A DNA stretch of 64,000 bases, from contig SMSO01000031.1 in the NCBI GenBank assembly GCA_004764695.1, forward strand, positions 3,891,048 through 3,955,047, given 5' to 3'. Every line of letters starts with the position of its first letter. The stretch's first letter is position 1. The stretch comes from Schizochytrium sp. TIO01. Its lineage: Eukaryota > Sar > Bigyra > Thraustochytrida > Thraustochytriidae. The notes beneath the pieces were generated by a model. The model made no database searches and had not been told where the DNA came from. It saw only the letters and a program-made list of their open reading frames with translations. Position numbers and translations under genes: made by a program. Below are positions 4,796-37,668 of this stretch, piece after piece.

Positions 4796-5503
4796 ATGCG
4801 GGCGGCTCTTCTTTGTGCGCGGGCAACCGCAAGGACACAGCGCGGTGCCCCTGTGACCTCTCAACTCCGTGGAAATGTGCTCGCCTCCTCCTCGCCCTCT
4901 CTCTCTTCTCCCCTCGCGCCTCTGTCCATGAGCAACAGCACTCAGTGGCTCTCCCTCTCCTCGGACCTCCAGAGCCGTCTCAGCTCGAGTGTGAGCAGCT
5001 CCTCTTCAGGCGAGAGCTCTGAGCTCCCTCCTGTACGTGCGTGGAGGGCACGTCTGAACAAGCAGGCTATGGAGAAGGCCGCTTTGCGCAAGGCCGAGTC
5101 CGCAGCCCAAACTACACAGACAACTGTAGTGGAGCACCCTTCAAAGCTGCCCTTCAGGGACCCCAATGCGCCCAGCAAGTTTGCTGTCGTCGCTCTCTCT
5201 GGCACACAGTACAAGGTTGTCGAGGATGACCTCATCGTCTGTAGCCTCCTCGACAATGCGGAGGTTGGTGAGAAATATGTAATTGATGACGTCCTGCTCG
5301 TTGGAGGCCTCGACAAGACCGTCATCGGTAGACCACGCATTGCTGGAGCCACCGTCACAGCTATGGTGGAGGAGATCACCAAAGATCAGAAGGTGATTAT
5401 TATGAAACGCCGCACCAAGAACCACAAGAGCCGTCGCACCAAGGGCTTTCGTCGCGACGTCACTTTTCTGCGTATCGCAAGTATAGACTATGAGTTAAAG
5501 TAA
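4796..5503 (+). CDS. MRPL21: Mitochondrial ribosomal protein bL21m
   Basis: A 235-residue frame. The C-terminal ~108 residues (from FAVVALSGTQYKVVEDD) carry the bL21 fold signature: the G-x-Q-Y-K-V segment, the G-x-P-x-I/V-x-G-A-x-V segment and a basic tail motif K-R-R-T-K-N-H-K-S-R-R-T-K-G-F-R. Bacterial L21 is ~103 residues. The extra ~125 N-terminal residues start M-R-A-A-L-L-C-A-R-A-T-A-R-T-Q-R, Arg/Ala/Ser-rich without acidic residues, a typical mitochondrial presequence, then a Ser-rich linker. The product should join the mitochondrial large ribosomal subunit. A plastid version is less likely because no bipartite leader is seen. The stop codon at 5501-5503 lies 16 nt inside the end of the convergent lpxC coding sequence. 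Confidence 0.9.
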   Translation: MRAALLCARATARTQRGAPVTSQLRGNVLASSSPSLSSPLAPLSMSNSTQWLSLSSDLQSRLSSSVSSSSSGESSELPPVRAWRARLNKQAMEKAALRKAESAAQTTQTTVVEHPSKLPFRDPNAPSKFAVVALSGTQYKVVEDDLIVCSLLDNAEVGEKYVIDDVLLVGGLDKTVIGRPRIAGATVTAMVEEITKDQKVIIMKRRTKNHKSRRTKGFRRDVTFLRIASIDYELK

Positions 5504-6570
5504 TTTTGATTGGTGAGCAATCTTGTAAACTTGTGGCTTGCCGCGTGCCCTGGAGCGCGAGCTGTAAGCTTGCCATTTAGGGGTCCATATCTGGCAATGA
5601 AGACATACATGTCTCCTAAACAATCCAAAACTTTATGACGTACCCATTCGTTCTCTAAGCGAAGCCCTTCATTATTCAGAGTGGTGATGTCTCCATCGCC
5701 TTTGAAAACAACAGAGTTAGCCAACGAACCTCCCTTAGCTAGGCCCATTGCTTGCATAGGAGCGACATCTTGCTCAAAACAAAACGTGCGTGCTGGGGCA
5801 ATCATATTTCGGAATTCATTTGAGACACCTTTCTGCGCAGCATCGTAGTAATGTGTGTACGAGACAACCTTTGGCCCAGGGAGTCTACCTTGAAAATCAT
5901 CCACTTCAACCTCTAATTCAAGACGAGGTCTGAATCTATCTTTGCATTGACTTGAATGACTTCTATTTAGTGCTTCTTGAGCGGCTCCCCTTGCAGAGGA
6001 AGAGGATGAGTGCGGTTTGAGTTCGTACTTTCGGTTTTCTGAGGACAACAGATCAAGAACTAAAACTGAATTCACAGAGTTAATTTTCAAGGGTGGAGAG
6101 TTAGTACGCCCATCTTCATTTGAAGAAAATAATGCAATCTGGTCCTGTAGACCATCTAGAAATTGCAGTGCAGATCCATCCAAAATTGGAATTTCAGGAC
6201 CTTGTACCGTCACTGTTGCATCAGTTATACCACAACCCAGAAAAGTTGCCAACAAATGCTCTACCGTCCGAATTTTTCCATCACCTCCACAGTCTAGCTC
6301 TGTGCAAAGCGCGCTCTCTCGTACTAAAGTCGGCGCAAGTATGTGTCTTGTGCACGACTTGCTGTCTTTCACTATGAAGCCAACGCCTGATCCTGGGGGT
6401 GCTGGTTCTACGCTAAGTGAGCAGTATACACCTGAATGAAGCGCTGTTCCTCCGAACGTGACAGCTTGTTTCACTGTCGCGCGAGCAATTGAAGCAAGCA
6501 TAATAGGCAATAAACCTGCCCAAAGGTTTCTGCTTCTTCGAAAGTGGCGTAGGGGAATATATCTACCCAT
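5488..6570 (-). CDS. lpxC: UDP-3-O-acyl-N-acetylglucosamine deacetylase (LpxC), probably mitochondrial
   Basis: A 360-residue frame from the first ATG at 6570; the longer frame begins with TTG at 6576. LpxC removes the acetyl group in the committed step of lipid A synthesis, using a catalytic zinc. All key residues are visible: T-V-E-H (E104, H105), P-E-I-P-I-L-D-G-S-A just after, R-H-K-V-L-D (H312 and D316 as zinc ligands) and G-H-A-A-S-H-K (H342, catalytic). The first ~30 residues are Arg-rich with no acidic residue (MGRYIPLRHFRRSRNLWAGL), suggesting a mitochondrial presequence, as known for plant LpxC. A Ser-rich insert separates the two halves. Enzyme activity is likely intact. The last five codons and stop overlap the end of MRPL21. 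Confidence 0.93.
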   Translation of the reverse strand: MGRYIPLRHFRRSRNLWAGLLPIMLASIARATVKQAVTFGGTALHSGVYCSLSVEPAPPGSGVGFIVKDSKSCTRHILAPTLVRESALCTELDCGGDGKIRTVEHLLATFLGCGITDATVTVQGPEIPILDGSALQFLDGLQDQIALFSSNEDGRTNSPPLKINSVNSVLVLDLLSSENRKYELKPHSSSSSARGAAQEALNRSHSSQCKDRFRPRLELEVEVDDFQGRLPGPKVVSYTHYYDAAQKGVSNEFRNMIAPARTFCFEQDVAPMQAMGLAKGGSLANSVVFKGDGDITTLNNEGLRLENEWVRHKVLDCLGDMYVFIARYGPLNGKLTARAPGHAASHKFTRLLTNQNYFNS

Positions 6571-7072
6571 TTTCAATTTTTTTATTTTTTATTTTTCCAA
6601 ATTATTTTTTCGCTAAACTTTTTTATAGTTAAAAATAAGTATTAGAATATGTAATAGATACCATATGGGGAAAATAGTTATAGATATTGTGTACAAGTAG
6701 GCTTCAGAGAATCCAAAACAAATGATTAAGGGGAATACCCTGACCTCAGGTGACTGGTGAGATTGGTGTCGCTTTTTCACGCTCTCACTGGTCAGAGTTT
6801 ACTCAGATTAGTCCTTTGATTTGGGTGGAAATTAAAGTCAAGAACAACTTCATGACGTTTGTGAACTGAAAGGATAGCTTGTAGCATTAACCATCCACAA
6901 AAAGTTTTGGTAGGATAGTGGCAACAGTCCTGCACGGAAAGTTACAAAATGTGCAACTACGCTGATGAGGCGCGCATAACGTTTACAACCTCTATCACAC
7001 AGAGACAAGGAACGCGGGATATGCTTCAAATATAGCTTACGCCCGAAAACAACTTTATAAAACTCGTGAAAT
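6571..7072. other. Spacer between lpxC and VPS35L
   Basis: About 500 bp of AT-rich sequence between two minus-strand genes, so it contains the lpxC 5' region and the VPS35L 3' region. An imperfect inverted repeat spans 6759-6798 (GACTGGTGAGA versus TCTCACTGGTC). AGTCCTTTGATTTGGGTGGAA at 6810-6830 recurs with 2 mismatches at 29742-29762. No gene seen. Confidence 0.5.
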
Positions 7073-11614: not shown

Positions 11615-13219
11615 ATGTCTTCAACGGGCGTAGCATGGAAAGATGTCGAGCCTTTTCTGGGCCTCATCCTTGCGTCTGCGTTTTGCTTCGTATGCCAAGG
11701 ATTAGGTAGCTCAAACAATGAAAACACTGTCAGAAAGGGGTGGACAAAAGCTGCAATGCAACGAAAGCGCATGGTTTTGCTTGCCTCAACAAGCGGTCTA
11801 GTTCTTGGCTTTGCCTTGTTTTGTGGTATACTTGTGTTTACCCAATTTCCAGCAATGCTACAAACGACCCATCCTGCAATTGCCCAGTTGAAGACAGATG
11901 CCCGTGAACAATGTCATAAGCACATGGAAAATATGAACATCCTTGAAGCCGAAAAGTTAATTCGAGATAATACGAAAAGTAGAGAATTGGCGACAGAGTT
12001 TGCTAGCCAACAGCGTAAAACGCTGGATCGTGCCCTCCGTCCTTATCTCAACCAATTATTTTTCCGGATGGGCGCAATGTGCTCTGTTTTGCCTTTCTTT
12101 ATCATTCTTGGGATTCAGATAATCTGCACTTTAGCCAAGTGGACACTTCCAAAGCAGCTCCCAACGCCGGCTGATATTACATTTGTTCTTCTGCCAATCG
12201 TTCAAATGGCCACTGCTTACACATGGGCTGTTACAATTTGTTTCCATTTCTGGCTTCGAGAAAGACAAGTTACAAACTGCATGCTTCTTTCTGGGCACTG
12301 GTACACAGCTCTTCACACAATTTGTGTATCTATCGCCACTGCAGGTTGGATGAGGATGGAATGCACGGGTGCAGACCAGAGTGAGACACCAGGAAAACGG
12401 GTTTGGACAAGCTCATCATCATTGCTTCCACTTTATTACTTGGCATGGGTTATAGCGTATATTGCTCTGACCTCAAGAGTTCTTTCTACTTCACAGCATT
12501 TCCATCATGATTGGCAGGAATCAGTAGAGGGTATCAAGTGTATGGTCATGACATTACCTTTCGCTGCTCTTGCTGGAGCCTTTGTTCTGTATATCTCAAC
12601 CGAGCGAGCACAACTCGAGATTGCAGACACAGAATCATCAGGCTTTCAAAAGGGCCAAACAGCAGATGTACTTGAAAATTTCCAAGCGGAAAGTAATGTG
12701 GAGCTTGATGTCAAACTAGGGGATCTTGTCCTTGTTATCGATGCGTCTAATACTGGGTGGGTTTATGTTCAGCGCCAAGATGGTACAAAGGGTTATGTGC
12801 CTGATAGTTTTCTTGTTGTTTCTCAGCAACAGTTTGGCTTACTATCTAGACAATCACCAAACCTGGAAGATATTAAGGGTGATCCTTTGAATGCATCATC
12901 TCCTTCCTATGTAGACAATATCGCCTCGAAGAATGATGTATCTAGTTCGGAAAGAACACCTTCTGCCTCAAATGAAACAGTTAACTCAGCGGCTCCAAAG
13001 CCGGAGGCTCCAACACGAGCTGTACCATTTCTGAATGACATCCGAAATGGAAATGTTAACCTTAAAAAGGTTTCTCCTTCATCTTCTTCTGATAGCAATG
13101 GTGGTAGTAGTAAATCTCAAGGAAGCATGATGGGGGCGTTACAACAAGCACTTCACCAACGCAGAGCTACATTGAACCCACCTGAGGATTCAAACGAGGA
13201 AAGCAGTGAATGGAACTAA
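11615..13219 (+). CDS. Multi-pass membrane protein with SH3 domain and C-terminal VCA (WH2-central-acidic) module
   Basis: Start moved to the ATG at 11615 (MSSTGVAWKDV); the longer frame begins with GTG. The product has 534 residues. About seven hydrophobic segments lie near residues 13-31, 53-77, 153-174, 187-213, 231-246, 269-288 and 308-328. An SH3 domain follows at ~348-402 (A-D-V-L-E-N-F, L-G-D-L-V-L-V-I, T-G-W-V-Y-V, G-T-K-G-Y-V-P-D-S-F). A Ser/Pro linker leads to a WH2-like motif at ~471-487 (PFLNDIRNGNVNLKKV, one residue longer than usual before L-K-K-V). A WASP-type central motif G-A-L-Q-Q-A-L-H-Q-R-R follows at ~503-519, then an acidic tail with a penultimate Trp (EDSNEESSEWN). WH2 binds actin monomer and CA binds Arp2/3, so an Arp2/3 activator fixed in a membrane is inferred. 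The membrane part is not assigned to a family. Confidence 0.75.
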   Translation: MSSTGVAWKDVEPFLGLILASAFCFVCQGLGSSNNENTVRKGWTKAAMQRKRMVLLASTSGLVLGFALFCGILVFTQFPAMLQTTHPAIAQLKTDAREQCHKHMENMNILEAEKLIRDNTKSRELATEFASQQRKTLDRALRPYLNQLFFRMGAMCSVLPFFIILGIQIICTLAKWTLPKQLPTPADITFVLLPIVQMATAYTWAVTICFHFWLRERQVTNCMLLSGHWYTALHTICVSIATAGWMRMECTGADQSETPGKRVWTSSSSLLPLYYLAWVIAYIALTSRVLSTSQHFHHDWQESVEGIKCMVMTLPFAALAGAFVLYISTERAQLEIADTESSGFQKGQTADVLENFQAESNVELDVKLGDLVLVIDASNTGWVYVQRQDGTKGYVPDSFLVVSQQQFGLLSRQSPNLEDIKGDPLNASSPSYVDNIASKNDVSSSERTPSASNETVNSAAPKPEAPTRAVPFLNDIRNGNVNLKKVSPSSSSDSNGGSSKSQGSMMGALQQALHQRRATLNPPEDSNEESSEWN

Positions 13220-13520: not shown

Positions 13521-16500
13521 TCAATTTAGTAAATGCGGCGGTGGTGGGGCCAAAATTGTGTTCAGGCTGGAACACGAAAGAAGATCAATCATTTCTAAAT
13601 TTTGTATTCGCAAATCAGACAACCGAGCTCGATCATCTACCTGAATCGGTGCGACGATGTGAGCAACATCAGAGTCGATTGAGTTGCTGGCCAGAAAATG
13701 CTTTTTGAACGCAGGTACTACGGGCTCCTCGAGAAAAGTACAAGCTAAAGTCTCCTGCTGTAGTATCGTTTGACTGTCAGATGAGAGTGCAATTACATGC
13801 CCTCTTCCAAAGACTACAATACTTCGAGTCTCCTCAAGAGTCCGTATTTTGACCTCAAATGAGTAGTTTGACGGAACCATGCCGGGATGTACGCCAATTC
13901 GAATTTGCTTCACTGTGCCAGGTTTGAGCTCCGTTGTGTCATCAACCAAAACCTTAATTCTAGCTTGGCTTAAACACGTTTTAATAATGTCGAAAGATAA
14001 AAAAACAGTGACGGATCCACTGTTGATTAGACGTATCTCCTGAAAGCAATAACTTCCGCATGGAGTTGCTCCAAAGTTGACTTCGCCAGAAAGTGGGGAT
14101 ATATCGACTCTGTATGTACCTCCAATTCCTAAAACATTTAAAATTTTATAACGTCCACGTGATTCCACAATGAAGTCTCCAGGAAAACGACCAACATCAC
14201 TAGCTTTGAAGAAAACATTTACATCTTGACTTTGCCGAGGCTCGAGGTTTCCTGAGTCAGGAGTCACTTCAAAGCCAGGTGCAACGGCGGGAATAGACCA
14301 GTCTAAGTCAATTTTCCCAGTGTTACAAATTTTGAAGGACCGCTGGTATTTTGTGCCTGGAGAGCAAACTCCAAAATTAATGGTGTCTCCCAAAACACGA
14401 AATTGTGGATAGACCCCAAGCCCACTCACTTGTATATCGAAAGTCCCAACATTCGATCGAAGCTTAATACTTCCCCGGAGTTCGTAACTCCCCATAGGTT
14501 TCCAGCTTATAGCAAATGTACCTTCCCCGTAGCCTGGGATCGTTATTGTTTTAGGTGTAAGCTTCAAAGGAAAGCTAGGGGCCAGGTTAAGCTCGGCTGG
14601 GTATCCTCCATAATTCCTTATCGTTACACATTTGGTAATTAGATCACCCACGGCGCATGGACCCATACGAACCTGGGCGAATTCTGAAGGGCGAAGAGTG
14701 GAAGCATCACACTTCCCCTCCATCTGAATGATAGAAGTACTTCCAACGAGATCGGTTTCCACAAACAAGTCTTCACAAAACTCTCCTAGAAAGTTCTCCA
14801 AAAGTTGCTCTTGGACTTCGCTCTGAACCGGTCCAGAAAAAGTTGCAATAATCTCAATAGATTCCTTAGGTGGAAGTCGAGCTTCCCATCTCGATAATTT
14901 AAAAGGAAAGGCCTTTTGGGGATCTACACGTCGAAGACGAAACGAGAAGGTCATGGTCCCAGTGTTTTCAAAGGTCACAGTAGCTTTGGCTGGCTTTGTG
15001 GCCTGAAAATGTCCAAAGTTGAACGATGGTGGGTAAACGTTTAAATAGGCTGTTCCTGCAATCAATCTTAGTGGAAGATCAAAATTGGAGTATATTGAAG
15101 ACAATGCAATTCGGACATTGTCGGTTGTTTCTTCCATTGCCTTACTTGGAACATAAGTCACAGTGATGACTCTTTTCTCGAATGGGGAAATGGATAGACT
15201 TTGTGGTTCAACTTTTAAATCATTCAAAACGGTCCACTTGTGGGCTTTGGGCTCATTTCCTTCAGAGCAAATAAGCGAAACTTCTAGCGGGTACGTTAGA
15301 TCCCCAGCATTCGAAACTTCGAATGAAGTTTTGTAGGCATTCCCAACTATACAATCAACGAAATCCACGCGTTGGACAGACAAACTAAGAACTGCCTCGC
15401 GACCACTGCCGGTGAGATCTAGCGTGTATGATCCTGTTGATGTATGAATTGTAAAAGTGTCCACAAAGTGACTTTCGGAGTGAGGATGGAATACGAGGGG
15501 AACATAAAAATTATCAGAAGGGGCAATTCTCAGCGGCTCCCCGGAGTCTAACGAATGCGGCCATGACTCCCCCTTGCGAAAAACAGAGTGGCTGTGTCTA
15601 CTGTTCTTAAACGTAAGAGCCTTAATAGTAAGCACAGCATTTCCTGAGTTTCCAACTCGTAGACGCTTTGGTATGGTCTTGCCAACCATGCAGCGGCCAA
15701 AGTCAAATATTTCATAGTGATCTAAATCCAGCTGAGGGTATCCACCGCCTGCATATACATCAAAAACGATAGGCGCAGTGCAATTGGTCTCAAATAAAAT
15801 TGGATGTACACATAATCCCTCGCTCGATGGTGAGTAGACAAACTCAATCAGAACTAGATCACCTGGATTTAAAACGCCCTCGTTGGGCTCCACAACTAAA
15901 TCATCATTGCCGTTTCGAATCCTAAATTCTGCTGCCATGGTACCTCGGTTCTCAAAGGTTCGAGCTATTACTTTTGTTTCACCTAAAGCCTGGCGTCCAA
16001 AATTAATCGTAGTCAAGTCATCAACTATGATTCTCACCTCTTGAGCCTCCGCCCGGACCGGGATTTCATATGGTTCTACACCTGGGAGCATAGATCCTAC
16101 TACTAAGATAGCGTCCAGATAACCTTCAATAGAGGTGTTCAAGGAGACATTGACTTCCATGCTCATGCGCTCAGAAAGAGTACCCTGTTTTGGGCAAACC
16201 TGTAAGTGTGCAAGAGAGAATTTACTCTCTTCTAGCTCACGTTCCAGAAGCTGTTGAGGATCTTCAAATTCTGCATTATTCGATTGCTTTGTATCACCCG
16301 GAGTGGACGAGTTAATAAACTCTTGGAGGACTTTTGCATCCCTATCAGCATCATCCAACTTTGAACGGAACGCCTCAGAAAGATCTTGTGCTTCGTTCTT
16401 TTGCTTAGAAAGCTGCACCTCCTGATACTTATGAAATCGCTCCAATATGTGCTCCATTCGTGATCCCACTGCATCTCCTCGACTACAAAGATCCTGAAGA

Positions 16501-19500
16501 GCATCGCTTAGACCTGTTGAAGCAGAATTCGTTAGCCGAAGTTTCCGTTTTGCAAAGGATCCTGCCGAAACTAGCGATGATCTAGTTCTACCAATATCTG
16601 GGAGATCTGGAAACATCTCATGATGCTGATCCAGGTCCCAGATTACGTTTCTCTGTGCGCTTGTTAAAGGACGAAAATTGTTCATTTTGCGAGCGTCTCG
16701 GACTAATAATAGAACATTTTCAATAGCCCAATGCCACAATCTAAGTTGACCGAGCCTAGTTGTTGTACCTTTGAGCAAAATTGTAGCAGTCAAAACCCCC
16801 AGCCTCGCAAGTTCATAGGCATCTCTCGAGCCGGCTTTCATTTTCCAATAGAGCTGGACGCTGGTTGGAATCGATCCAGAGTTTGTAAGGGCAATCGATT
16901 TCGTGTAAGTGTGATCACAAGCAATGTTTCCGAAATTAAGATCTCCTACGTGGCCCAGCTTAACGCCCCCTCCTCTTGCTCGAAGTGGAACTGTCAACGA
17001 GTCAAATTCACTTCGAATTTTGAGAAGCCCCGAATAGGATATCTCACGTTCTGCGCATAGACGTACACGTAAGACCACAAAGTGTCCAGGATACAGAGCA
17101 CACTCCACGACCGTGTCTCCATTCTTTTCGTTGCCGGCCGAAGAATACATGTCAATTGCAATTTTGCTTTGTTGCCGTGTTAATCCTGCATTTGAATTCT
17201 GCTTTGGAGGTCGGCGGATTACACTTGCACGAAAAGGCGCTAGCTGCTTTTGCTCTAGATTAGCTGATTTTTTATGACTTTGGTTTGAGGGATTACGCTG
17301 CTTTCGTGCTACCACCATAGGTGCTGACCCCTGGTCCTCGACTCGTTCTGCCTCTCCGCTTGACAGAGCAAACTTAGCGCTATATCCTGGGGTTGCACTT
17401 TGTATGTCATTTATACGAATGTGACCAATCGTATAATAGGGTGACGTGGATTCGCAAACAAGCTTTAATGGTACCTGGCCTGAGTTATGGAACAATACTC
17501 TTTTCTCCATAAGAACATGCGTACTTACTAGCTGAAAGTCTAAGCCTTGCATATTTCTATCTCTTTGTGAGAGAAACTCAGGCTCCAGAACTCCCTGCCC
17601 CCCTAAACCAGCGACGTTAATCGTAAGTCTTTTCACACTGTTATAAACAACGGTGAAAACACCCTCAATATGATCACTGTGAGAAGGTTCGAATGCTATC
17701 TGTAGAGGGAGATACTCCCCAGGCTCGACTTTCCCATCTCGTGGGACAATACAGTACTCGCGAGGAACCTTTGATTGAACGTAAAATAACGCTGGGATTT
17801 TCCCTGCATTATATAAAAGGATAGTGCGGCGATGTGATTGCCGCACTGCACGTACACCAAAATCAACAGCACTTTCAAGGTATGGTGTTTGGTCATTGTC
17901 GTATAACTCAAGGCTTGCAAAACCTTCCTTGGCACGCAAGGTGAGCTGTTCATAACCGGTGGCATGTCTTAAAAAGACTTTAGCTGATAGTACCCTTTGA
18001 TTTCCTACACCTGCTTCAGGAGAATTCTCAGGTGACTTAAATTTGAAACTAATCGGAGTCCTTCCATAAGCCTCGCAGGTACCTCGAGTTTCAATAGAGA
18101 ATCCAAGACGACCTAAAGCTCGTGTAAAGTGCTCTGGAAGCATGGAAGTAGTCGATGATGAGCTCCTTCGACGGTTTATCCGAGATTTACCAGCTCCAGA
18201 TGTGATGCTTCCTCGCCTCCGATTTTCATTTTCTGTATTGTGCGCATACTGAAGCATAATTGACCTGACCGTGAGATCAGAGGGGTCAGGTTCCACACTA
18301 AAATCATAAGGAACATTTCCTGGGTTCATTGCGTGAATTACCTGCACATATTCTTGGTTGGCTTCGCACAAACCAAAATCAATTGTTCGAAGTGGAGTGT
18401 CAAGCTCAAGCAATGGATCTCCTCCAACGCCTCGAATTTCCGCTGGAATAGATTCAAAGCGATTTTGGATTACAAACAGAGCTCTAGTTTCGCGTTCACG
18501 TTCGAGTGGCTCGAATGATACAGTGAAGTGAATCATAACCCCCGTTGCAAAATTTCCATCCATAGGTTCGACCGTAAGATACTCAGGTGTGAACTCCTCA
18601 AAGTCTTTTGGAAATGAGAAAACATCAAGCCATGTTTGTTTTGCTTGGTTGAACGATTTCCGAGCTCCGGGTTTAGCGGATGATCGATGTTGTCCCATTG
18701 CGTATGAGTCTCGTACTTGCTTTGCCTCTTCTCTGCTAGTAGCTTCCTTCGTCGGCCTCATAAATACGCAATGAAACTCAAGACTTACGTCGCCAATGTT
18801 CGTAACTGTAAAGCTCCGATTATGTGTTTGCTTTACTAATGCAACATCAAAATCCAAATCATTCAAGGCCTGCTCAGGGGTAACACTAAGTTCGGGAATG
18901 CCAACATAGCCACATACATCAACTTCATAGCGTACACTTGGGTCCTGGGCCATCTTTACAACAATTGTGTCATCGAGACGATCAAGGGAGCTAGGACGGA
19001 AAATAATAGGTACCCAAATATTACCGCGTGATGGGACACGAATTCCATCGGGCCCATGCTCAACAGTCAGGCTCGAACATGGCATATCAAAGGTCACAAA
19101 ACACTCTGCAGCGCCATAGTTGAAGATTTGTAGTAGGCTTGTGTTGGACACATTCAAGATGGCTTGGTCAAAGTCAACGCATGACTGTCGAACGTGTAAT
19201 TGTGGCACACCAGCACTACCTCTGCATGCAACAGGTATGGTATGCAATACGGTATCTATGTTATCCCTCATGCTATCATTTAGAGTACTCCATAGAATCT
19301 TCAATTCGCTATAAGATGCACCTTGTTCAGCAGCAACGTATGCAATGCTTATGTTCTGAGTTTTATTAGGTAGAATTGACCCCATCAGCGGGACAAAATT
19401 GAAGCTTGACGAAAACTGGGATCCTCTGCTTTCTTCCTGGCTCGAATTGCGATCTATGACAAATTCTGCCGCTAAATTGCCTTTATTATGGAGTTGAAGC

Positions 19501-22500
19501 TCCACTAATTTGCGGTTCCCGATTGGAATACATCCAAAATCGAGCAGAAAGGAACCATCATCTTTCTCTGTTACACTTTCCATGTTGCCTGCATTTCCAC
19601 AAGAAATAGAGATAAAGGCAGCGCCCGTTGCTCCGTATAATGTGACCTGTTGACTATGCCACTCGAACTTTGACTCTCGCGCTCCATCGATACAGCTTTC
19701 AAAGCCTACGCTCGCAGTAAGCGCTCGCTCCAGAACAGTCTCGTTGGGCTGAAAAATAACTTTGATACGCTGACTGCGTCCTGGTTCAATCGTACATTCT
19801 GAGGGTGTTAGTGAAAAGAACTTGTTGTCGACTATATCACCGTACTCGGTTGTTTGTTCCAATTTTTGCGAAAATCCATTTGAAATTCGGGATTCTTCCG
19901 CATTATTTTCAACTTGTGGTGGAGCCGTTTGTTCTATCAATTTTGTTTCAAAACTACGGGCTCGAGTGAAACTCACATGGGAGCGCCATTGAACATTAGC
20001 AACACCAATATTATGTATCGTTATGTACTTTGCCGAAGTGGATCCAGACGCAACTACCCCAAATTGGATGTCGGAAATGTCAATTGACAGTGCAGGCTGA
20101 AACTTTGCAGCTACTCGGAAAGTATGAATCGTTGGTGCAGCAGCCCCTGGCTCTTCACTATGAATTTCGAGATTCTCTTCTAGATGACCTGAGCTTCCTT
20201 GCTCATAGTCAATACTTAATATTATGCGAACTTCTTTTCCTGGTTCAAGATAGAACGGCAGTTTATCTGGCTGCAGCAAATCTGATGTGTACTTTCTGAT
20301 TTTTGCGTAAAGCTCTTCCTTACTCGCAGGCTCTGCACGTTCATGTATGGAAGTAGGGGTTTCTGCATCTCTCATCTTGGTCTTGTTTTCTGCTGAGCTA
20401 TTTGAGCGCAACCCCTCTAGTAATTTGAATGCTTCGGATCGTTTTTCTCGCCGAATTGTGTGCTCTACAGTACTTATCTGGTAGTCAATCTCATCCCAAT
20501 CAATAACATTTCGACTCTGACAGGTGAGTGAAAGTTGTAAGTCAGAAAATCGAGATGGTCTGTATGTTCCCTCTGAAATTTCGTGGTCCTTGTCCGTCAA
20601 AGCTTGGATCACTGCATCCTCAACCATTTGGTCAAGCTGCAGGGGGCAAAGACCAGGGGCTGACGGGTACTGCAACGCGTGAGCAGGTTTGGTTTGAATA
20701 CTGATTTTCAACCATGGGGCTTTAGTGGTGAAGTCTATCAGTTCAACTGACCGCGAACCAGAATTTACCAGAACAAATTCTAATTGAGCAGTTTTTTTTT
20801 CTGCTGTGCTGATCGTACCAAAGTCAACACATGTTCCAGACTCAGCACTCCGTTCGGGTTGTGTTTTAGACTCGGAGTACAAATACACTTGGGTAGGATC
20901 TCCAAAATTGCTTGATAAATTGCAATAACCTGCACGGGCACGAATCACAAGATACTCTGGCACCGCATTACCGGTTGCAGGCATAATTTGGCAGAAGCGT
21001 ACACAACGACATGGTGCTTGTGGGTTTACACGGAAATCAAGAGGTATACGCTGCTCTGAGTTGGCAGTTGTACTGGGTTGATTAGTTAACGGTGCAGGCA
21101 AGAGCACTGTAGTCTTGAAGTTACCTTGAACAATTTCAAATGGCCCCATATCCTCTAATGATAGTGACAACTGAACCCCATAGCGAAATGAGTTCTTTAA
21201 AAGTATGCTCTGTTCGAGAATAGAACCGACAGAAATATCACCAAAATCCAGTACCTTAGGACTGATATGCACTGATGAAAAACTATAAACACTTGCATCT
21301 AGCATCCCAGTAAAGACTTTGAGTGGTGTAACATCTGCATTTGCTGTATCGTCTTCATGCGAGGTAAATGGGTATTCGATTGTACACCGGACAGGGGCGG
21401 CAAATACTCCTTCAATGTGGCTTTGGAATTGTATGCAAAGGTCGAGCTGAGCCCATGGATGGACATGCAAGCTTAATTCATCCGTTGGTATTCGCTCCGG
21501 GTCAATTATAAGGAATGGTGAGGTTTCTGCATTTTGTATAATTCTTGTACTTAAATTTATCAGATGCGGTGTTTGGTTGCTGATTCGCAAAAGTCGTGAG
21601 TCAGCTTCTCCTCGATATAAACTTTGGAAAACAAGACCATCTTCAGGACACCGTACGGAAACTGGCGCAGTTGCTGCCCCTTGTAATAAGCACGAGCAAT
21701 ATTGATGAATGACCCCATGTTGTTCGTAAACAACCGAAAGAAACCCCCAAGTTGGAACGCTAGCTGTATCTTCTAGCTGAGGATCTATTTCTATTATGAG
21801 TTCTAATGAGTCATGCGGGTCCACATAACCTTCAAGCAGACGCACTTGACGTAATACAAATGGACTCGAGACAAGAACTTTGTATGGCTGTGATATACTG
21901 GATGTATTACGCAGAGTAACACTTCCGTAACTTCGCTCATGAGACGAAGAATTTCCAAAAATATAGGAAACACTCTTGCTGAGCTGAAGGCAGTAAGCTT
22001 CAGCTCCATCAGTTCCGGTATTCGCAGACCCTGTTTGTCCATGTCCAAATCCAGTTTCCTCATTTTCATCCTCTGAGTCCTCAGAGTTTTCGTCGTATTC
22101 ATGGCTCCCAGGCTGTTCGTGAGAAATTGATACTGCCAAAAGACTCCTAAGACGGTTGTATGTAAGTCTCTTGGAACCCAGCTGTCTGGTGTCACCACTA
22201 ATATCTTTCCCAATACAAGGTATTGTAACAAACCAAGGTCCATAAGTGATTCGATGAGGGTGAACTAGCTCAATTCGGATTGGAAGTCGATACAGGCCTG
22301 GTTTCGACGATAAAAATTTAATTTCTACTGTGGCATCCTCCTGTGAATGCAAAACTATCGTTGCGCCTCCTCGAAGATCCGTTGCTTCTTGAGTAGGTGA
22401 CTGATACCAAGCTGAGCAGGGTGAGTCTTCAAATCCAGTTATGAAGAGTTCTACAGAGCTTTCACTATAGTTCTTCAAAGGAAGTTCAAACTGGGATTCT

Positions 22501-24932
22501 AAACCGGTTGATTGTATTGGAAAGTTCACGCTCTGAGACAACGGAATGGACACAAGCTGTCCCACAAAAGCTGATAGTGATACATACTGTGCAGAGTATC
22601 CCGGGGCAGTAACATTCAACTTTGCATTAAATTCACCTGTAAAGTAAGGTCTGATGCTGATTTCAACTTCACGTCTTTCCCCTGGTTGTAAGATAACTGG
22701 TGAGCATGAAACCTCTTCAGGTCGATTTGATATGAAACGTACCTGAAGTGAGTTTTCTGGGTCTAAATTTTCAATATGTAAGGTTTTGGAGGCAGAAGCG
22801 AGCGCTGATCGTCCACAGATCCCTGGAATGAATGAAGCGTTTGCTTTAGAAGATTCAGCATGCAAAAGACCAAATGCAAGATCATCCTCGAATAGTCGTA
22901 ACGGTGAGCCGCCATGGCCAGTAACCTTCACTTGGTGAACCTCACTTCCGGTCCCGGTTACGACAAGCACGTCTTGGTACCCCTTTGCTTCGCGAGGGCT
23001 GAAGAACACATCAACCCAAAACTCTGTTCCAGGAAGTATCAATACTTGCGTCTGTCGTATGGTAAAAACAGGATCCTCCTGCAAAAGAGAAATTGAGCAA
23101 TTGCAGGGGACTGGTGAACAATTACGAATGATTACAGGGAGTGATAAAGCCTGGTTTGATCTACGTTGAACAGGCACATAGCCGAAATTCAAGCGAGAGT
23201 CTTGAACCTGAAGATATGGTCCATGAATTGCAGATAAGCTTAGTCGCTCGCCAGGAAGACCTGCATTTGTGCGGACACGTAGAAATCCTGCAATACGAAT
23301 GCTTGCCAGAGACGAATTAGAAAGATCTTGCACAAACCTCAGGAGTATCTTGCAGGAGGCTTTAGCTTCTACAACACCATAGGCAGGGGTGGCCAGAAAA
23401 TGTTGACTGGGAAACGTTTGCAGAGAAAAAAACTCTTGTGTGGTACCTGGGTTTGTCAGATAGAGGACTACTTCCTCTTTAGAGCCCAAGAACGAGATTT
23501 CATTTTGTTGAATCTGGAACGTGAGGCCACTTGTAAACTCAGAAGGAAGAGTCATATCTACCTCCTCCTCATCATCATCTTGTAGATTTGCGTCTATCTG
23601 GGTGTCTTCTTGCAGACCAATAGCTGCAGACGTGGCGAAATTAGTTGCTGTGTACAAACTGAGTTTTGAATCTGAAGAGCTGGAGGACTCAATTTCAAAT
23701 TGCGCATGTAGTGTATAGTCGTTACTTCGGTTATTGTTGTCAGAAAAAGACGTTGACCTCTTACTATATCCATGCAAATAGTGATATCGGCGGGGAATAT
23801 ATCCGCCTTGAGAACTCGAAGTTACTTTACCCCTATTATCTGATCCTTTTGAGATATTTGACCACGTTCTATTGTTATAGACTGAATGAGGACGTTCAGA
23901 TAGCGCACGAGTAGAAGTTATTTGATGTTCTAAGTTCGAATCCTGTGTAATTTGGTGTCTTCTATTTCTTGCATGTTCTAATAAACTCTTAACTTCTTCT
24001 TCGAGTTTAGATAGCGTGCCAGAATATTTCACAACATGAGCTTGACGTGCGAGGGTCCGAACAATAGAACAGTCAATGCTAGCAATGAAATTATCACTTG
24101 GGATGTGAAACCAGCGACAGATGAACCAGCTTGCTTCAGTGCATAAGAAATCTGGCATTTTGCGGTTGACCCATTTATTTTTCCTCTTCACCACAAAAAT
24201 TTGGTAAACTAGCGAACGAAGAGGCTCTACTATATTTTGCCTAGTTTCGTATGTATCGTCTAGAGATTGTCTTAGAGTTTTCAGAAGTGCAGCCACAAGC
24301 AAAGGGTGGTGCATGGTCCATTTCGACTCTACTAGAATGTCATCGTTGAGACTAGCAACAGTGACAAGTACTTTGCGAGCCTCGTTGAAAAATGCTTGGA
24401 TCAAAGGAGATCCGATACCATTTTGATGAGCCACTAAAGTAAGAAACGGCCCAGCAGCTGTTGTAGCGGCAATGGCATGGGGAACATTCTTCTTAGAGTA
24501 GGACGAAATAAATAGCTCTGTGACAGTTGCAATCGAATCAGCTACAATGTATTCACGAAAAGAACCTGGATTTAACTCTGGTACAGTGAGTCCTAGCACG
24601 AGCCCAGCAATGAATCTGTTTTCCTGTCGTTCATCAGCACTTAATATACTCCTCAGTAGCTCGAAAATCCTACTTTGTAGACTTGGGTCACGAAGTGGGA
24701 CGCGAAGTTTCGTTGCAGAAAGAGATAAAGCTCTGAGAACAAGTTCACGGAATGTTGGCTCTGGGTGCTCAAGAAGTGAAATCAAGCGTGAAAGCATCGA
24801 AGAATTTATTGCATAACCAGAACCCTGGCACGCGCCTAGAGTGTTGGCTGTATCTCCTGTGAGTAAAACTCGTAACGCATGTTCTGCATCGCCAAGGTTG
24901 TCTTTAGTAGAGTTCTCTGTCTGACTATTCAT
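13521..24932 (-). CDS. Giant ASH-repeat protein, Hydin-like
   Basis: An intron-free frame of 3803 residues. Residues ~1-330 are helical (ARM/HEAT-like). A Ser-rich low-complexity stretch and an acidic patch precede the first beta-sandwich at ~467. From there to ~3700 the chain is a series of ASH/MSP-type immunoglobulin-like domains. The landmark '(V/I/L)-(D/N)-F-G-x-(5)-(G/R)' occurs at least 20 times (for example L-D-F-G-D-I-S-V-G-S, V-D-F-G-T-I-S-T-A-E, I-N-F-G-V-C-S-P-G-T), each followed by N-x-G or N-S-G and P-G turns. Hydin is the central-pair protein of motile cilia (~5100 residues in human). CFAP47, CFAP65 and CFAP74 are related alternatives that need a search to exclude. A charged helical insert lies near residues 2740-2900. 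Location: axoneme, by family. Confidence 0.75.
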   Translation of the reverse strand: MNSQTENSTKDNLGDAEHALRVLLTGDTANTLGACQGSGYAINSSMLSRLISLLEHPEPTFRELVLRALSLSATKLRVPLRDPSLQSRIFELLRSILSADERQENRFIAGLVLGLTVPELNPGSFREYIVADSIATVTELFISSYSKKNVPHAIAATTAAGPFLTLVAHQNGIGSPLIQAFFNEARKVLVTVASLNDDILVESKWTMHHPLLVAALLKTLRQSLDDTYETRQNIVEPLRSLVYQIFVVKRKNKWVNRKMPDFLCTEASWFICRWFHIPSDNFIASIDCSIVRTLARQAHVVKYSGTLSKLEEEVKSLLEHARNRRHQITQDSNLEHQITSTRALSERPHSVYNNRTWSNISKGSDNRGKVTSSSQGGYIPRRYHYLHGYSKRSTSFSDNNNRSNDYTLHAQFEIESSSSSDSKLSLYTATNFATSAAIGLQEDTQIDANLQDDDEEEVDMTLPSEFTSGLTFQIQQNEISFLGSKEEVVLYLTNPGTTQEFFSLQTFPSQHFLATPAYGVVEAKASCKILLRFVQDLSNSSLASIRIAGFLRVRTNAGLPGERLSLSAIHGPYLQVQDSRLNFGYVPVQRRSNQALSLPVIIRNCSPVPCNCSISLLQEDPVFTIRQTQVLILPGTEFWVDVFFSPREAKGYQDVLVVTGTGSEVHQVKVTGHGGSPLRLFEDDLAFGLLHAESSKANASFIPGICGRSALASASKTLHIENLDPENSLQVRFISNRPEEVSCSPVILQPGERREVEISIRPYFTGEFNAKLNVTAPGYSAQYVSLSAFVGQLVSIPLSQSVNFPIQSTGLESQFELPLKNYSESSVELFITGFEDSPCSAWYQSPTQEATDLRGGATIVLHSQEDATVEIKFLSSKPGLYRLPIRIELVHPHRITYGPWFVTIPCIGKDISGDTRQLGSKRLTYNRLRSLLAVSISHEQPGSHEYDENSEDSEDENEETGFGHGQTGSANTGTDGAEAYCLQLSKSVSYIFGNSSSHERSYGSVTLRNTSSISQPYKVLVSSPFVLRQVRLLEGYVDPHDSLELIIEIDPQLEDTASVPTWGFLSVVYEQHGVIHQYCSCLLQGAATAPVSVRCPEDGLVFQSLYRGEADSRLLRISNQTPHLINLSTRIIQNAETSPFLIIDPERIPTDELSLHVHPWAQLDLCIQFQSHIEGVFAAPVRCTIEYPFTSHEDDTANADVTPLKVFTGMLDASVYSFSSVHISPKVLDFGDISVGSILEQSILLKNSFRYGVQLSLSLEDMGPFEIVQGNFKTTVLLPAPLTNQPSTTANSEQRIPLDFRVNPQAPCRCVRFCQIMPATGNAVPEYLVIRARAGYCNLSSNFGDPTQVYLYSESKTQPERSAESGTCVDFGTISTAEKKTAQLEFVLVNSGSRSVELIDFTTKAPWLKISIQTKPAHALQYPSAPGLCPLQLDQMVEDAVIQALTDKDHEISEGTYRPSRFSDLQLSLTCQSRNVIDWDEIDYQISTVEHTIRREKRSEAFKLLEGLRSNSSAENKTKMRDAETPTSIHERAEPASKEELYAKIRKYTSDLLQPDKLPFYLEPGKEVRIILSIDYEQGSSGHLEENLEIHSEEPGAAAPTIHTFRVAAKFQPALSIDISDIQFGVVASGSTSAKYITIHNIGVANVQWRSHVSFTRARSFETKLIEQTAPPQVENNAEESRISNGFSQKLEQTTEYGDIVDNKFFSLTPSECTIEPGRSQRIKVIFQPNETVLERALTASVGFESCIDGARESKFEWHSQQVTLYGATGAAFISISCGNAGNMESVTEKDDGSFLLDFGCIPIGNRKLVELQLHNKGNLAAEFVIDRNSSQEESRGSQFSSSFNFVPLMGSILPNKTQNISIAYVAAEQGASYSELKILWSTLNDSMRDNIDTVLHTIPVACRGSAGVPQLHVRQSCVDFDQAILNVSNTSLLQIFNYGAAECFVTFDMPCSSLTVEHGPDGIRVPSRGNIWVPIIFRPSSLDRLDDTIVVKMAQDPSVRYEVDVCGYVGIPELSVTPEQALNDLDFDVALVKQTHNRSFTVTNIGDVSLEFHCVFMRPTKEATSREEAKQVRDSYAMGQHRSSAKPGARKSFNQAKQTWLDVFSFPKDFEEFTPEYLTVEPMDGNFATGVMIHFTVSFEPLERERETRALFVIQNRFESIPAEIRGVGGDPLLELDTPLRTIDFGLCEANQEYVQVIHAMNPGNVPYDFSVEPDPSDLTVRSIMLQYAHNTENENRRRGSITSGAGKSRINRRRSSSSTTSMLPEHFTRALGRLGFSIETRGTCEAYGRTPISFKFKSPENSPEAGVGNQRVLSAKVFLRHATGYEQLTLRAKEGFASLELYDNDQTPYLESAVDFGVRAVRQSHRRTILLYNAGKIPALFYVQSKVPREYCIVPRDGKVEPGEYLPLQIAFEPSHSDHIEGVFTVVYNSVKRLTINVAGLGGQGVLEPEFLSQRDRNMQGLDFQLVSTHVLMEKRVLFHNSGQVPLKLVCESTSPYYTIGHIRINDIQSATPGYSAKFALSSGEAERVEDQGSAPMVVARKQRNPSNQSHKKSANLEQKQLAPFRASVIRRPPKQNSNAGLTRQQSKIAIDMYSSAGNEKNGDTVVECALYPGHFVVLRVRLCAEREISYSGLLKIRSEFDSLTVPLRARGGGVKLGHVGDLNFGNIACDHTYTKSIALTNSGSIPTSVQLYWKMKAGSRDAYELARLGVLTATILLKGTTTRLGQLRLWHWAIENVLLLVRDARKMNNFRPLTSAQRNVIWDLDQHHEMFPDLPDIGRTRSSLVSAGSFAKRKLRLTNSASTGLSDALQDLCSRGDAVGSRMEHILERFHKYQEVQLSKQKNEAQDLSEAFRSKLDDADRDAKVLQEFINSSTPGDTKQSNNAEFEDPQQLLERELEESKFSLAHLQVCPKQGTLSERMSMEVNVSLNTSIEGYLDAILVVGSMLPGVEPYEIPVRAEAQEVRIIVDDLTTINFGRQALGETKVIARTFENRGTMAAEFRIRNGNDDLVVEPNEGVLNPGDLVLIEFVYSPSSEGLCVHPILFETNCTAPIVFDVYAGGGYPQLDLDHYEIFDFGRCMVGKTIPKRLRVGNSGNAVLTIKALTFKNSRHSHSVFRKGESWPHSLDSGEPLRIAPSDNFYVPLVFHPHSESHFVDTFTIHTSTGSYTLDLTGSGREAVLSLSVQRVDFVDCIVGNAYKTSFEVSNAGDLTYPLEVSLICSEGNEPKAHKWTVLNDLKVEPQSLSISPFEKRVITVTYVPSKAMEETTDNVRIALSSIYSNFDLPLRLIAGTAYLNVYPPSFNFGHFQATKPAKATVTFENTGTMTFSFRLRRVDPQKAFPFKLSRWEARLPPKESIEIIATFSGPVQSEVQEQLLENFLGEFCEDLFVETDLVGSTSIIQMEGKCDASTLRPSEFAQVRMGPCAVGDLITKCVTIRNYGGYPAELNLAPSFPLKLTPKTITIPGYGEGTFAISWKPMGSYELRGSIKLRSNVGTFDIQVSGLGVYPQFRVLGDTINFGVCSPGTKYQRSFKICNTGKIDLDWSIPAVAPGFEVTPDSGNLEPRQSQDVNVFFKASDVGRFPGDFIVESRGRYKILNVLGIGGTYRVDISPLSGEVNFGATPCGSYCFQEIRLINSGSVTVFLSFDIIKTCLSQARIKVLVDDTTELKPGTVKQIRIGVHPGMVPSNYSFEVKIRTLEETRSIVVFGRGHVIALSSDSQTILQQETLACTFLEEPVVPAFKKHFLASNSIDSDVAHIVAPIQVDDRARLSDLRIQNLEMIDLLSCSSLNTILAPPPPHLLN

Positions 24933-35793: not shown

Positions 35794-37668
35794 ATGCGAC
35801 AGCGCAATATCGCAGCCCGGGGTCTTTCACCCTCAAATAAGAGAGATGGTCACTCCACGGAGGGTTTCCGAGGCTCCCAAGAGAAAGTATATTCTAGATC
35901 ACCTACTGACGAAACTGGTTATAGAAATAGCGTCTCTAATCCATTCGAATACAATGCACCTGTGACTGTGTACGAATTTGCCAAAATTGCAATTCATATA
36001 TTCTCCGGCTTTCTTTTTATTCGCGCTATTCTATTTGCATTGCTTTTCCTGAGCGCATACGGATGTGCTTTTGTCGCGACGATTGGCCTTGACCGAGAAG
36101 CTGGAGTGTATGAAGCACCTTTACCTAGGTGGCGACGTCTAATATTAAAACCAATCTCGTCTATAGCGCGTGCGATGCTCTTTGTCATTGGATTTTATCG
36201 TATTGAGGTTGCTGGGGAAATATCCAAGGAAGCATGCTTTTTTACGCCTAATCACGTTGGATTAACCGACTTGCTTTTGATGTATTGGCTGCTGCTCCCT
36301 AGCGCTCTATCCAAAGCGGAGGCCTTCAAAGTTCCGTTCGTTGGTACTCTCTTTCGTGGCTTGCAAGTCATTCCAGTGCAGCGAGACTCTGCTGCAGACA
36401 AGAAGCGTGCGATGGAAACTATCAAGCTATTTGCTGCCTCTCGAACCAACGAGGGCGATCCTAACAAACGTTTTCCACCAATCCTAGTTTTCCCTCAAGG
36501 GACCACTGCTAACCAGGAAACTTTGACGATGTTCCAGCGCGGGGCATTTACCCCCGGTTGTCCAGTACAACCTGTGAGCTTATATTACCCCTGGAAGCAT
36601 TTCAATCCTGCTTTCATTGTTAATCGGAAGACAGATTATTTTTGGGTACGGCATTTCTCACAGTTCGTAATGCATGCTCGTGTTCACTTCCTTCCTGTGC
36701 ACAGCCCAAGCGAAGCAGAGAAGAAGAACGCTACACTATTTGCAAACAATGTTCGGAGGGAAATTGCTGAAGATATCGGGGCGAACATCACAGAGCACTG
36801 TTATGAAGATGCAATGTTGTATCGTTCTGCACTTAACGTTGAAGAAACCCGCCACCAGCCTCGTCTTTTTAAGGGAGTCAATCCTCATGAGAAAATCTCA
36901 CTGGAGGGATTAGAGCTAAGGCGTATCAAAGATTTATTTGAGCATGCTCGACGAGACCGTGGGCTTACACTGAAAGATGCGAAGCTTATTTTGAAACAAT
37001 TTGCTGATGCAGATAAGGATGGGGATGGTTTGGTAGATTTGTCTGAATTCGCACGCGCAATAGGATTTGATAAAGATAGCAACCAAGTGAAACGCCTTTT
37101 CAATTTCTTTGACCGAGATTTGTCGGGAAAGATTGATTTTCGCGAGCTTCTTACAGGGATGGCAAATGTACACCCCTTTTCGAGCTCAAAAGACAAAATC
37201 AAATTTGCATTTGAACTTTTTGATCAAGATGGGGATGGTTATGTTTCAGAGACAGAGCTGTGGAATTTGTGGAATGTTGCAACAGAAAATACCGATTCCC
37301 AACGTTTTGCAGAAGAATCCCGTATTGAGCTTCGAAATCTTATTGAAACAGTTCACAATCGTAGACTATTAGCTGATGGGAACACCAGATCATCCTCATC
37401 AAATGAGATTCGCATAAGTTTGGAGGAGTTTCAAGATCTTGTTGAGAGGGATTCTGAGATTGTTGCTACAGCGCTTACTTCAATTGAGGCAGAGACACAC
37501 TCTTCAGAAAGTAAGAAACGGTTTTTTCCCTTTCTGTTGCGAAGAACTTCTTCTTCAAAGTTTGCTCAATTAGACGGGGGTCCTCTTGACAGTGAACCTG
37601 CTTGTGATGTGATGAATGGCACAACCACAGACTCAAGTTCTAACTCTACTGCGTCATGCAGCGAGTAA
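35794..37668 (+). CDS. Lysophospholipid acyltransferase with three EF-hands (LPCAT1/2-like)
   Basis: A 624-residue protein. A membrane segment lies near residues 63-98. The PlsC-type acyltransferase domain has the HX4D box (N-H-V-G-L-T-D, H154 and D159) and the third block F-P-Q-G-T-T-A-N at 233-240. In this block the usual Glu is Gln (Q235, codon CAA). Three complete EF-hand loops follow: 407-418 (D-K-D-G-D-G..E), 440-451 (D-R-D-L-S-G..E) and 477-488 (D-Q-D-G-D-G..E). PlsC followed by EF-hands is the layout of animal LPCAT1/2 and plant LPEAT2, ER enzymes that re-acylate lysophospholipids in the Lands cycle. The C-terminus is Ser-rich, with no clear ER-retrieval signal. Calcium control is inferred from the intact loops. 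Confidence 0.88.
   Translation: MRQRNIAARGLSPSNKRDGHSTEGFRGSQEKVYSRSPTDETGYRNSVSNPFEYNAPVTVYEFAKIAIHIFSGFLFIRAILFALLFLSAYGCAFVATIGLDREAGVYEAPLPRWRRLILKPISSIARAMLFVIGFYRIEVAGEISKEACFFTPNHVGLTDLLLMYWLLLPSALSKAEAFKVPFVGTLFRGLQVIPVQRDSAADKKRAMETIKLFAASRTNEGDPNKRFPPILVFPQGTTANQETLTMFQRGAFTPGCPVQPVSLYYPWKHFNPAFIVNRKTDYFWVRHFSQFVMHARVHFLPVHSPSEAEKKNATLFANNVRREIAEDIGANITEHCYEDAMLYRSALNVEETRHQPRLFKGVNPHEKISLEGLELRRIKDLFEHARRDRGLTLKDAKLILKQFADADKDGDGLVDLSEFARAIGFDKDSNQVKRLFNFFDRDLSGKIDFRELLTGMANVHPFSSSKDKIKFAFELFDQDGDGYVSETELWNLWNVATENTDSQRFAEESRIELRNLIETVHNRRLLADGNTRSSSSNEIRISLEEFQDLVERDSEIVATALTSIEAETHSSESKKRFFPFLLRRTSSSKFAQLDGGPLDSEPACDVMNGTTTDSSSNSTASCSE

Follow-up and report, generated by a model that had tools for sequence, protein, structure and literature searches.

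A predicted polytopic membrane protein of a thraustochytrid, with an SH3 domain and a WASP-like tail, as a candidate activator of the Arp2/3 complex

The stretch of Schizochytrium sp. TIO01 DNA analysed here ("the window", 64,000 nucleotides of a 64.06 Mb genome in 37 contigs) carries an open reading frame (ORF) whose 534-amino acid product we judge fairly likely to be an integral-membrane class I nucleation-promoting factor with a cytosolic SH3 domain and tail, an activity and a topology that we infer from its sequence. Such a protein would be anchored in the membrane, whichever membrane that might be, by its polytopic N-terminal region, with the SH3 domain and the tail on the cytosolic side; the WH2 motif of the tail would deliver an actin monomer, the central (C) helix together with the acidic/Trp end would bind the Arp2/3 complex and switch it on, and branched actin would grow directly against the anchoring membrane. 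The first-pass annotation of this DNA had read, on one chain at positions 11615-13219, about seven membrane segments, an SH3 domain and a tail in the order WH2 - central - acidic with a penultimate Trp. ORF inspection found the frame exactly there and intact, with an ATG at 11615, a stop ending at 13219, no interruption in its 534 codons and all parts in frame, and the SH3 and tail profiles support the same architecture. The features of the gene are these:

11615..13219, + strand: whole ORF (membrane region, SH3 domain, linker, WH2/C/acidic tail); apart from itself, it has no full-length match in the genome
11654..11710, + strand: hydrophobic segment 1, residues 14-32, mean Kyte-Doolittle value (KD) 1.82
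11771..11836, + strand: hydrophobic segment 2, residues 53-74 (19-mer 56-74, mean KD 2.11); the preceding loop has 6 K/R
11837..12076, + strand: 80-residue loop from segment 2 to segment 3; a low-confidence model has helices prolonging segments 2 and 3
12077..12139, + strand: hydrophobic segment 3, residues 155-175 (19-mer 155-173, mean KD 2.29)
12182..12250, + strand: hydrophobic segment 4, residues 190-212 (19-mer 190-208, mean KD 1.57); weak on an approximate insertion-energy scale
12299..12358, + strand: hydrophobic segment 5, residues 229-248 (best 19-mer 222-240, mean KD 1.12); the weakest on both scales
12419..12481, + strand: hydrophobic segment 6, residues 269-289 (19-mer 269-287, mean KD 1.52)
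12539..12601, + strand: hydrophobic segment 7, residues 309-329 (19-mer 309-327, mean KD 2.07)
12668..12817, + strand: SH3 domain, residues 352-401
13001..13018, + strand: PEAPTR, residues 463-468, of the form PxxPx[RK], which we take to be an SH3-ligand motif class; it lies immediately before the WH2 motif
13022..13078, + strand: WH2 (V) motif VPFLNDIRNGNVNLKKVSP, residues 470-488
13127..13174, + strand: central (C) helix MMGALQQALHQRRATL, residues 505-520
13175..13216, + strand: short acidic end with penultimate Trp, NPPEDSNEESSEWN

The tail was compared with the activators that the same genome encodes. A WH1 search found two WASPs, each with WH1 and PBD, a proline-rich region and a VCA:

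L046:372-2516, - strand: WASP-A, genome contig C31
L047:1413-3668, - strand: WASP-B, genome contig C32

A WAHD search found one WASH (contig C3); CYFIP of the WAVE complex is present as well, as are ARPC2 and ARPC4, both of the Arp2/3 subunits searched for. A WH2 search gave, among others, an 856-codon frame on contig C33 (L028:1249-3816, + strand) with PDZ and CCDC53-like segments, WH2 motifs and a CA-type end, an activator-like layout; CCDC53 is a WASH-complex subunit family. In the WH2 row the target reads FLNDIRNGNVNLKKVSP, WASP-A FLQDIALGQVKLRKSKP and FLSEIEAGIVRLRHNSE, and N-WASP LLDQIREGAQLKKVEQ; the spacing of the target's motif is one residue longer, identical to that of both WASP-A WH2s. 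In the C-helix row the target's MMGALQQALHQRRATL stands beside LMAKLIETMNERRAAM of WASP-B, LLDMLKSCVLERRKQI of WASP-A, PMSAIAQALDARRDQI of L028 and IVGALMEVMQKRSKAI of N-WASP.

We built hidden Markov models (HMMs) of V and C from the genome's own activators and human N-WASP, with the target excluded; V also contained other WH2s of the genome, and C the WASH row. The comparison set consisted of 268 C-termini of closed ORFs of at least 100 amino acids in six frames (many of them not genes), taken from the window and from loci mostly chosen for SH3, WH2 or related family matches and hence not a random sample, together with 2,000 shuffled versions of the final 100 residues of the target. In that set the target ranks sixth with the V profile (16.3 bits; best shuffle 3.8), behind five profile members only, and fourth with the C profile (6.9 bits; best shuffle 5.3), behind three profile members only. 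On pieces chosen around the motifs, V scores 19.1 bits over 35 amino acids (none of 20,000 shuffles as high) and C 10.0 bits over 30 amino acids (1 of 20,000), the register of the C helix having been set by eye on its hydrophobic/Arg pattern. Because a one-residue insertion in V had been permitted after the target was seen, the V test was rerun without the WASP-A rows, and at 10.7 bits still none of 20,000 shuffles reached it; over the whole protein V gives 13.3 bits at residues 472-488. When each C row was left out in turn, the numbers of shuffles per 1,000 that matched or beat it were 2 for N-WASP, 5 for L028, 4 for WASP-A and 2 for WASP-B; for WASH the number was 235, too many for the row to count as recovered, and this makes the C profile a weak one. 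C-like helices also occur in two other WH2 proteins that have no acidic/Trp end (L021, 5.6 bits; L027, 4.2 bits), so such a helix alone is not diagnostic. We therefore regard the evidence for a V motif as firm and that for a C helix as moderate, weaker than for V; a helix at residues 505-520 is present in a low-confidence AlphaFold2 model. These HMMs supersede a first home-made matrix test (29 of 20,000 shuffles for C, 2 of 5,000 for V), which also contained WASP and WAVE rows from outside the genome.

Stock searches behaved differently, and the profile check that the first-pass annotation had proposed succeeds with profiles from the same genome and fails with the stock Pfam WH2 model. At E<=10 Pfam gives no match in residues 470-534, the WH2 model (PF02205) finds 12 places in the genome without the tail among them, and phmmer with the tail finds no sequence match in the PDB. 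Yet the two WASPs, whose WH2 motifs are plain to the eye, escape the same model (absent from the 12 places; WH1 and PBD but no WH2 at E<=0.01 by hmmscan), so its miss on the tail says little. BLASTP of the tail with that of L028 gives an E value of 1e-4 for this single comparison and, with no preset register, aligns the C helices and the final EW; the V part is aligned only with gaps, to another segment. The single comparison with the VCA of N-WASP, at E 0.30, lacks significance. When the L028 CA and the tail were each searched genome-wide at the protein level, each found only itself, so that at this length a genome-wide search is blind to distant CA regions.

The acidic end is short: the last 13 residues of the protein contain 5 acidic ones, fewer than in N-WASP, and residues 466-534 together have 7 D/E and 7 K/R. 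The C-terminal ends read EESSEWN in the target, ASDDDWH in WASP-A, SEDEWSD in WASP-B, AGGSFWD in WASH and ...DEWAL in L028. Among 68 C-termini of closed ORFs of at least 200 amino acids, five have a W in the last three residues, and three of these five (the 534-amino acid protein, L028 and WASH) also have at least 4 D/E in the last 14. Of the features by which class I nucleation-promoting factors are known, we thus find a V motif, a C helix and an acidic/Trp end, and do not find a proline-rich region; inspection by eye showed no poly-proline or long proline-rich region before the tail, only the one short stretch PKPEAPTRAVP.

These results bear on an alternative that we consider unlikely, namely that the protein is a scaffold of membrane part and SH3 domain in which the tail uses its WH2 to bind actin monomers and does not activate the Arp2/3 complex, its C-like helix and weak acidic end not being a working CA. 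WH2 is indeed better supported than CA, only 5 of the last 13 residues are acidic, and in the genome the WH2 proteins L021 and L027 pair a C-like helix with a C-terminus that is not acidic; but L021 and L027 lack the acidic/Trp end, and the target has the V-C-A order and near-terminal Trp found in WASP-A, WASP-B, WASH and L028.

The SH3 domain is the strongest domain call in the protein. In Pfam, SH3_9 matches it at 38.5 bits (E 1.1e-9; cut-off 30 bits), SH3_1 (2.7e-7, 30.5 bits) and SH3_2 (5.7e-6) are also over their cut-offs, and a whole-genome scan with SH3_1 gives it 35 bits; in the PDB, phmmer matches it best, at E 1.3e-5, to SH3 domains from neutrophil cytosol factor 1. Since what we take to be the ligand-face Trp, Pro and final aromatic residue are retained and the ALYDY motif has Glu in place of its first Tyr, peptide binding seems plausible, with its detail altered. 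If the protein is a nucleation-promoting factor, its SH3 domain might recruit proline-rich partners, for instance the same cell's WASPs, or might instead clamp PEAPTR beside WH2 and so keep the tail quiet; because 7.1% of shuffles of residues 402-534 yield a motif of the PxxPx[RK] type by chance, PEAPTR is only suggestive, a mere hint of such a clamp.

Yeast Sho1 is likewise a polytopic membrane protein with a cytosolic C-terminal SH3 domain; it has four segments and no VCA. That the target is a Sho1-like sensor or adaptor which recruits a proline-rich partner, the VCA likeness of its tail being fortuitous, strikes us as distinctly improbable: the strength of the SH3 call and the Ser-rich linker of about 60 residues that follows it would suit such a protein, but V and C both score well above shuffles and stand in the right order, the segment count is unlike that of Sho1, and no Pfam membrane family is above its cut-off. 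Homology to Sho1 itself, and a place among Sho1-like osmosensors, were rejected, as about seven segments face its four and 133 residues follow the SH3 domain here, whereas that of Sho1 is at the C-terminus.

Seven 19-mers of the protein exceed a mean KD of 1.0, the fifth being the lowest (1.12), and we conclude that it probably crosses the membrane about seven times. Segments 4 and 5 fare worst on the insertion-energy scale, the values of which are approximate. An AlphaFold2 model made without an alignment (mean pLDDT 47.7), of which the secondary structure alone was used, and that weakly, has helices over all seven segments; a Foldseek search of the PDB with this model found nothing at E<=0.001, which is no surprise at such low confidence. 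Pfam gives no family above its cut-off in the membrane part (SirB is sub-threshold). NCBIfam gave nothing above a cut-off.

To predict topology, K/R near the membrane were counted for six enumerated sets of segments. Loop charge favors a C-terminus inside in four of the six, with in/out ratios of 10:6 for all seven segments, 10:4 for five (4 and 5 dropped), 10:5 for six (1 dropped) and 10:3 for four (1, 4 and 5 dropped); dropping segment 5 alone gives a tie (8:8), and dropping segment 4 alone favors a C-terminus outside (10:6). Thus the cytosolic placement of SH3 and tail, on which the first-pass annotation had made its reading depend, is favored by four sets and not by the other two: loop charges mildly favor it and do not settle it. 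The opposite arrangement, with SH3 and tail outside the cytosol and a role unrelated to actin, would be in keeping with the two sets in which segment 4 or segment 5 alone does not span, and with the location of both N-x-S/T sequons (426 and 453) in the tail, none being in loops. We nevertheless hold it to be very improbable, given the majority of topologies, the absence of Cys after residue 309 and the fact that SH3 and WH2 act on cytosolic ligands.

The stop-to-stop frame of the gene extends over 565 codons and is stop-free through all parts. G+C at third codon positions amounts to 0.42 for the membrane part, 0.30 for the SH3 domain, 0.32 for the linker and 0.30 for the tail, and to 0.36 and 0.39 for the neighboring ORFs of 3803 and 990 amino acids; we see no clear sign that the tail does not belong to the gene. 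Both neighbors are on the minus strand, the 990-amino acid ORF upstream and the 3803-amino acid ORF downstream, tail to tail with the gene; the latter (window 13521-24932) looks by eye like a hydin-like cilium protein. The ARPC4 match in this genome is split into two separate pieces, which suggests introns; in general we noted long ORFs and few signs of introns. That membrane part and tail lie on different transcripts, or that an unseen intron alters the tail, is a reading to which the split ARPC4 lends some color but which we find barely credible, since the stop-free frame runs across all parts, the G+C of linker and tail is near that of the SH3 domain and not far from that of the neighbors, and a VCA-like tail is not what an artefact would be expected to produce. 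A search of the genome with the whole protein gave nine matches at E<=10, one of them the gene itself; the other eight all start no earlier than residue 346 of the query and do not reach the membrane part, so that the search gave no paralogue of the whole protein. Whole-protein orthologue searches of prokaryote genome contigs (nine pattern matches) and viral contigs (one) had no confirmed match, which says little because neither collection is expected to contain this lineage.

Several known systems share parts of this layout. Arp2/3 activators are brought to membranes by lipids, GTPases and adaptors. Plant class I formins are, as the candidate would be, integral-membrane actin nucleators, but they are single-pass, use an FH2 domain and make unbranched filaments. 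Receptors with WIRS motifs are membrane proteins that direct Arp2/3 activation by binding the WAVE complex; they recruit a separate activator and, unlike the candidate, carry no VCA. The closest layout is that of the fungal long-tailed myosin-I (yeast Myo3/Myo5, motor-TH1-TH2-SH3-CA), which, according to the available text of PMC11185954, unites a membrane-binding TH1 with SH3 and CA on a single chain, and so combines membrane binding, SH3 and an Arp2/3-activating CA. It differs in binding lipid peripherally through TH1, in having a motor and in a CA with no WH2 of its own in the layout given, where the target has membrane-spanning segments and its own WH2. Membership in myosin-I was rejected, as there is no motor or TH1 and Pfam at E<=10 gives SH3 families and the sub-threshold SirB only.

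WASP-family activators, as the accessible portion of the 2012 survey of that family (PMC3298513) describes them, share with the target a C-terminal WH2 - central - acidic order, in most members with a terminal or near-terminal Trp; the survey names a proline-rich region followed by VCA as the common trait. The target differs by its membrane region and SH3 domain and by having no match to WH1, PBD or WAHD and no long proline-rich region; because the last of these is missing before the VCA, we do not claim canonical membership in the family. The named subfamilies WASP and WASH were rejected, Pfam at E<=10 showing neither WH1 with PBD nor WAHD, and the WASPs and WASH of this genome being other genes. 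The same survey reports that WASPs were lost in stramenopiles, and the part of PMC5461030 available lists none for the stramenopile that it covers; the two WASPs predicted in this thraustochytrid genome suggest that the loss needs revising.

The first-pass annotation had further held that the activators described so far are soluble proteins which partners bring to membranes, and had known of no described family with this combination. The former must be qualified, since fungal myosin-I carries its own membrane-binding TH1 (PMC11185954, as above); the latter agrees with our literature search, in which titles and the beginnings of abstracts, subscription papers being largely outside the coverage, contained no description of a membrane-spanning Arp2/3 activator and nothing on labyrinthulomycete WASP or Arp2. 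The WASP-family survey does not use the word "transmembrane" anywhere in its main text. We raise, as a tentative proposal, the possibility that the protein is the first integral-membrane class I Arp2/3 activator, polytopic and possibly with a receptor- or channel-like domain, gated by its SH3 domain through a PEAPTR clamp, and that, as a candidate, it drives the ectoplasmic net, which contains actin. An activator that itself spans the membrane would need no recruitment step, and branching would be tied to whatever the membrane domain senses; it would also be a candidate for how the thraustochytrid ectoplasmic net forms. According to the available text of PMC12221091, the net is made up of branching extensions of the plasma membrane that have an actin cytoskeleton, and the proteins listed for it are still candidates only; in the main text of that paper "Arp2", "WASP" and "SH3" each occur 0 times.

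Some further frames in the genome deserve mention. A 714-codon frame on contig C30 (L023/L026, - strand) has an SH3 domain, two CCDC53-like segments (read by eye, from L028), WH2-like motifs, long proline runs and the end HTQWS. The 985-codon frame L019/L027 (contig C33, - strand) has many WH2-like repeats (DLLASIR, NLLDSIRAAANQRA, DLMAAIRAAK) and is possibly a multi-WH2 actin nucleator, and the SH3-bearing 799-codon frame L029 (contig C34, - strand) ends at its extreme C-terminus in NDLLQAIQQSSRSGMM, which at 8.7 bits looks like the N-terminal half of a WH2. A PfaA-type PUFA synthase lies at C4:608161-617209, its first frame scoring 925.7 bits (below the cut-off of 1010.1) and the next 1157.4 (above it); the profile also has matches in 11 of 14 control genomes, none over the cut-off. 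This synthase, the long ORFs with few signs of introns and the size of the genome are what one would expect of a thraustochytrid. In the window, positions 5488-6576 (- strand) encode LpxC, a deacetylase of the lipid A pathway (208.8 bits with Pfam PF03331), here in a eukaryotic genome. Finally, positions 35794-37668 (+ strand) of the window join an acyltransferase domain and EF-hands on a single chain (Pfam), a combination found in some lysophospholipid acyltransferases.
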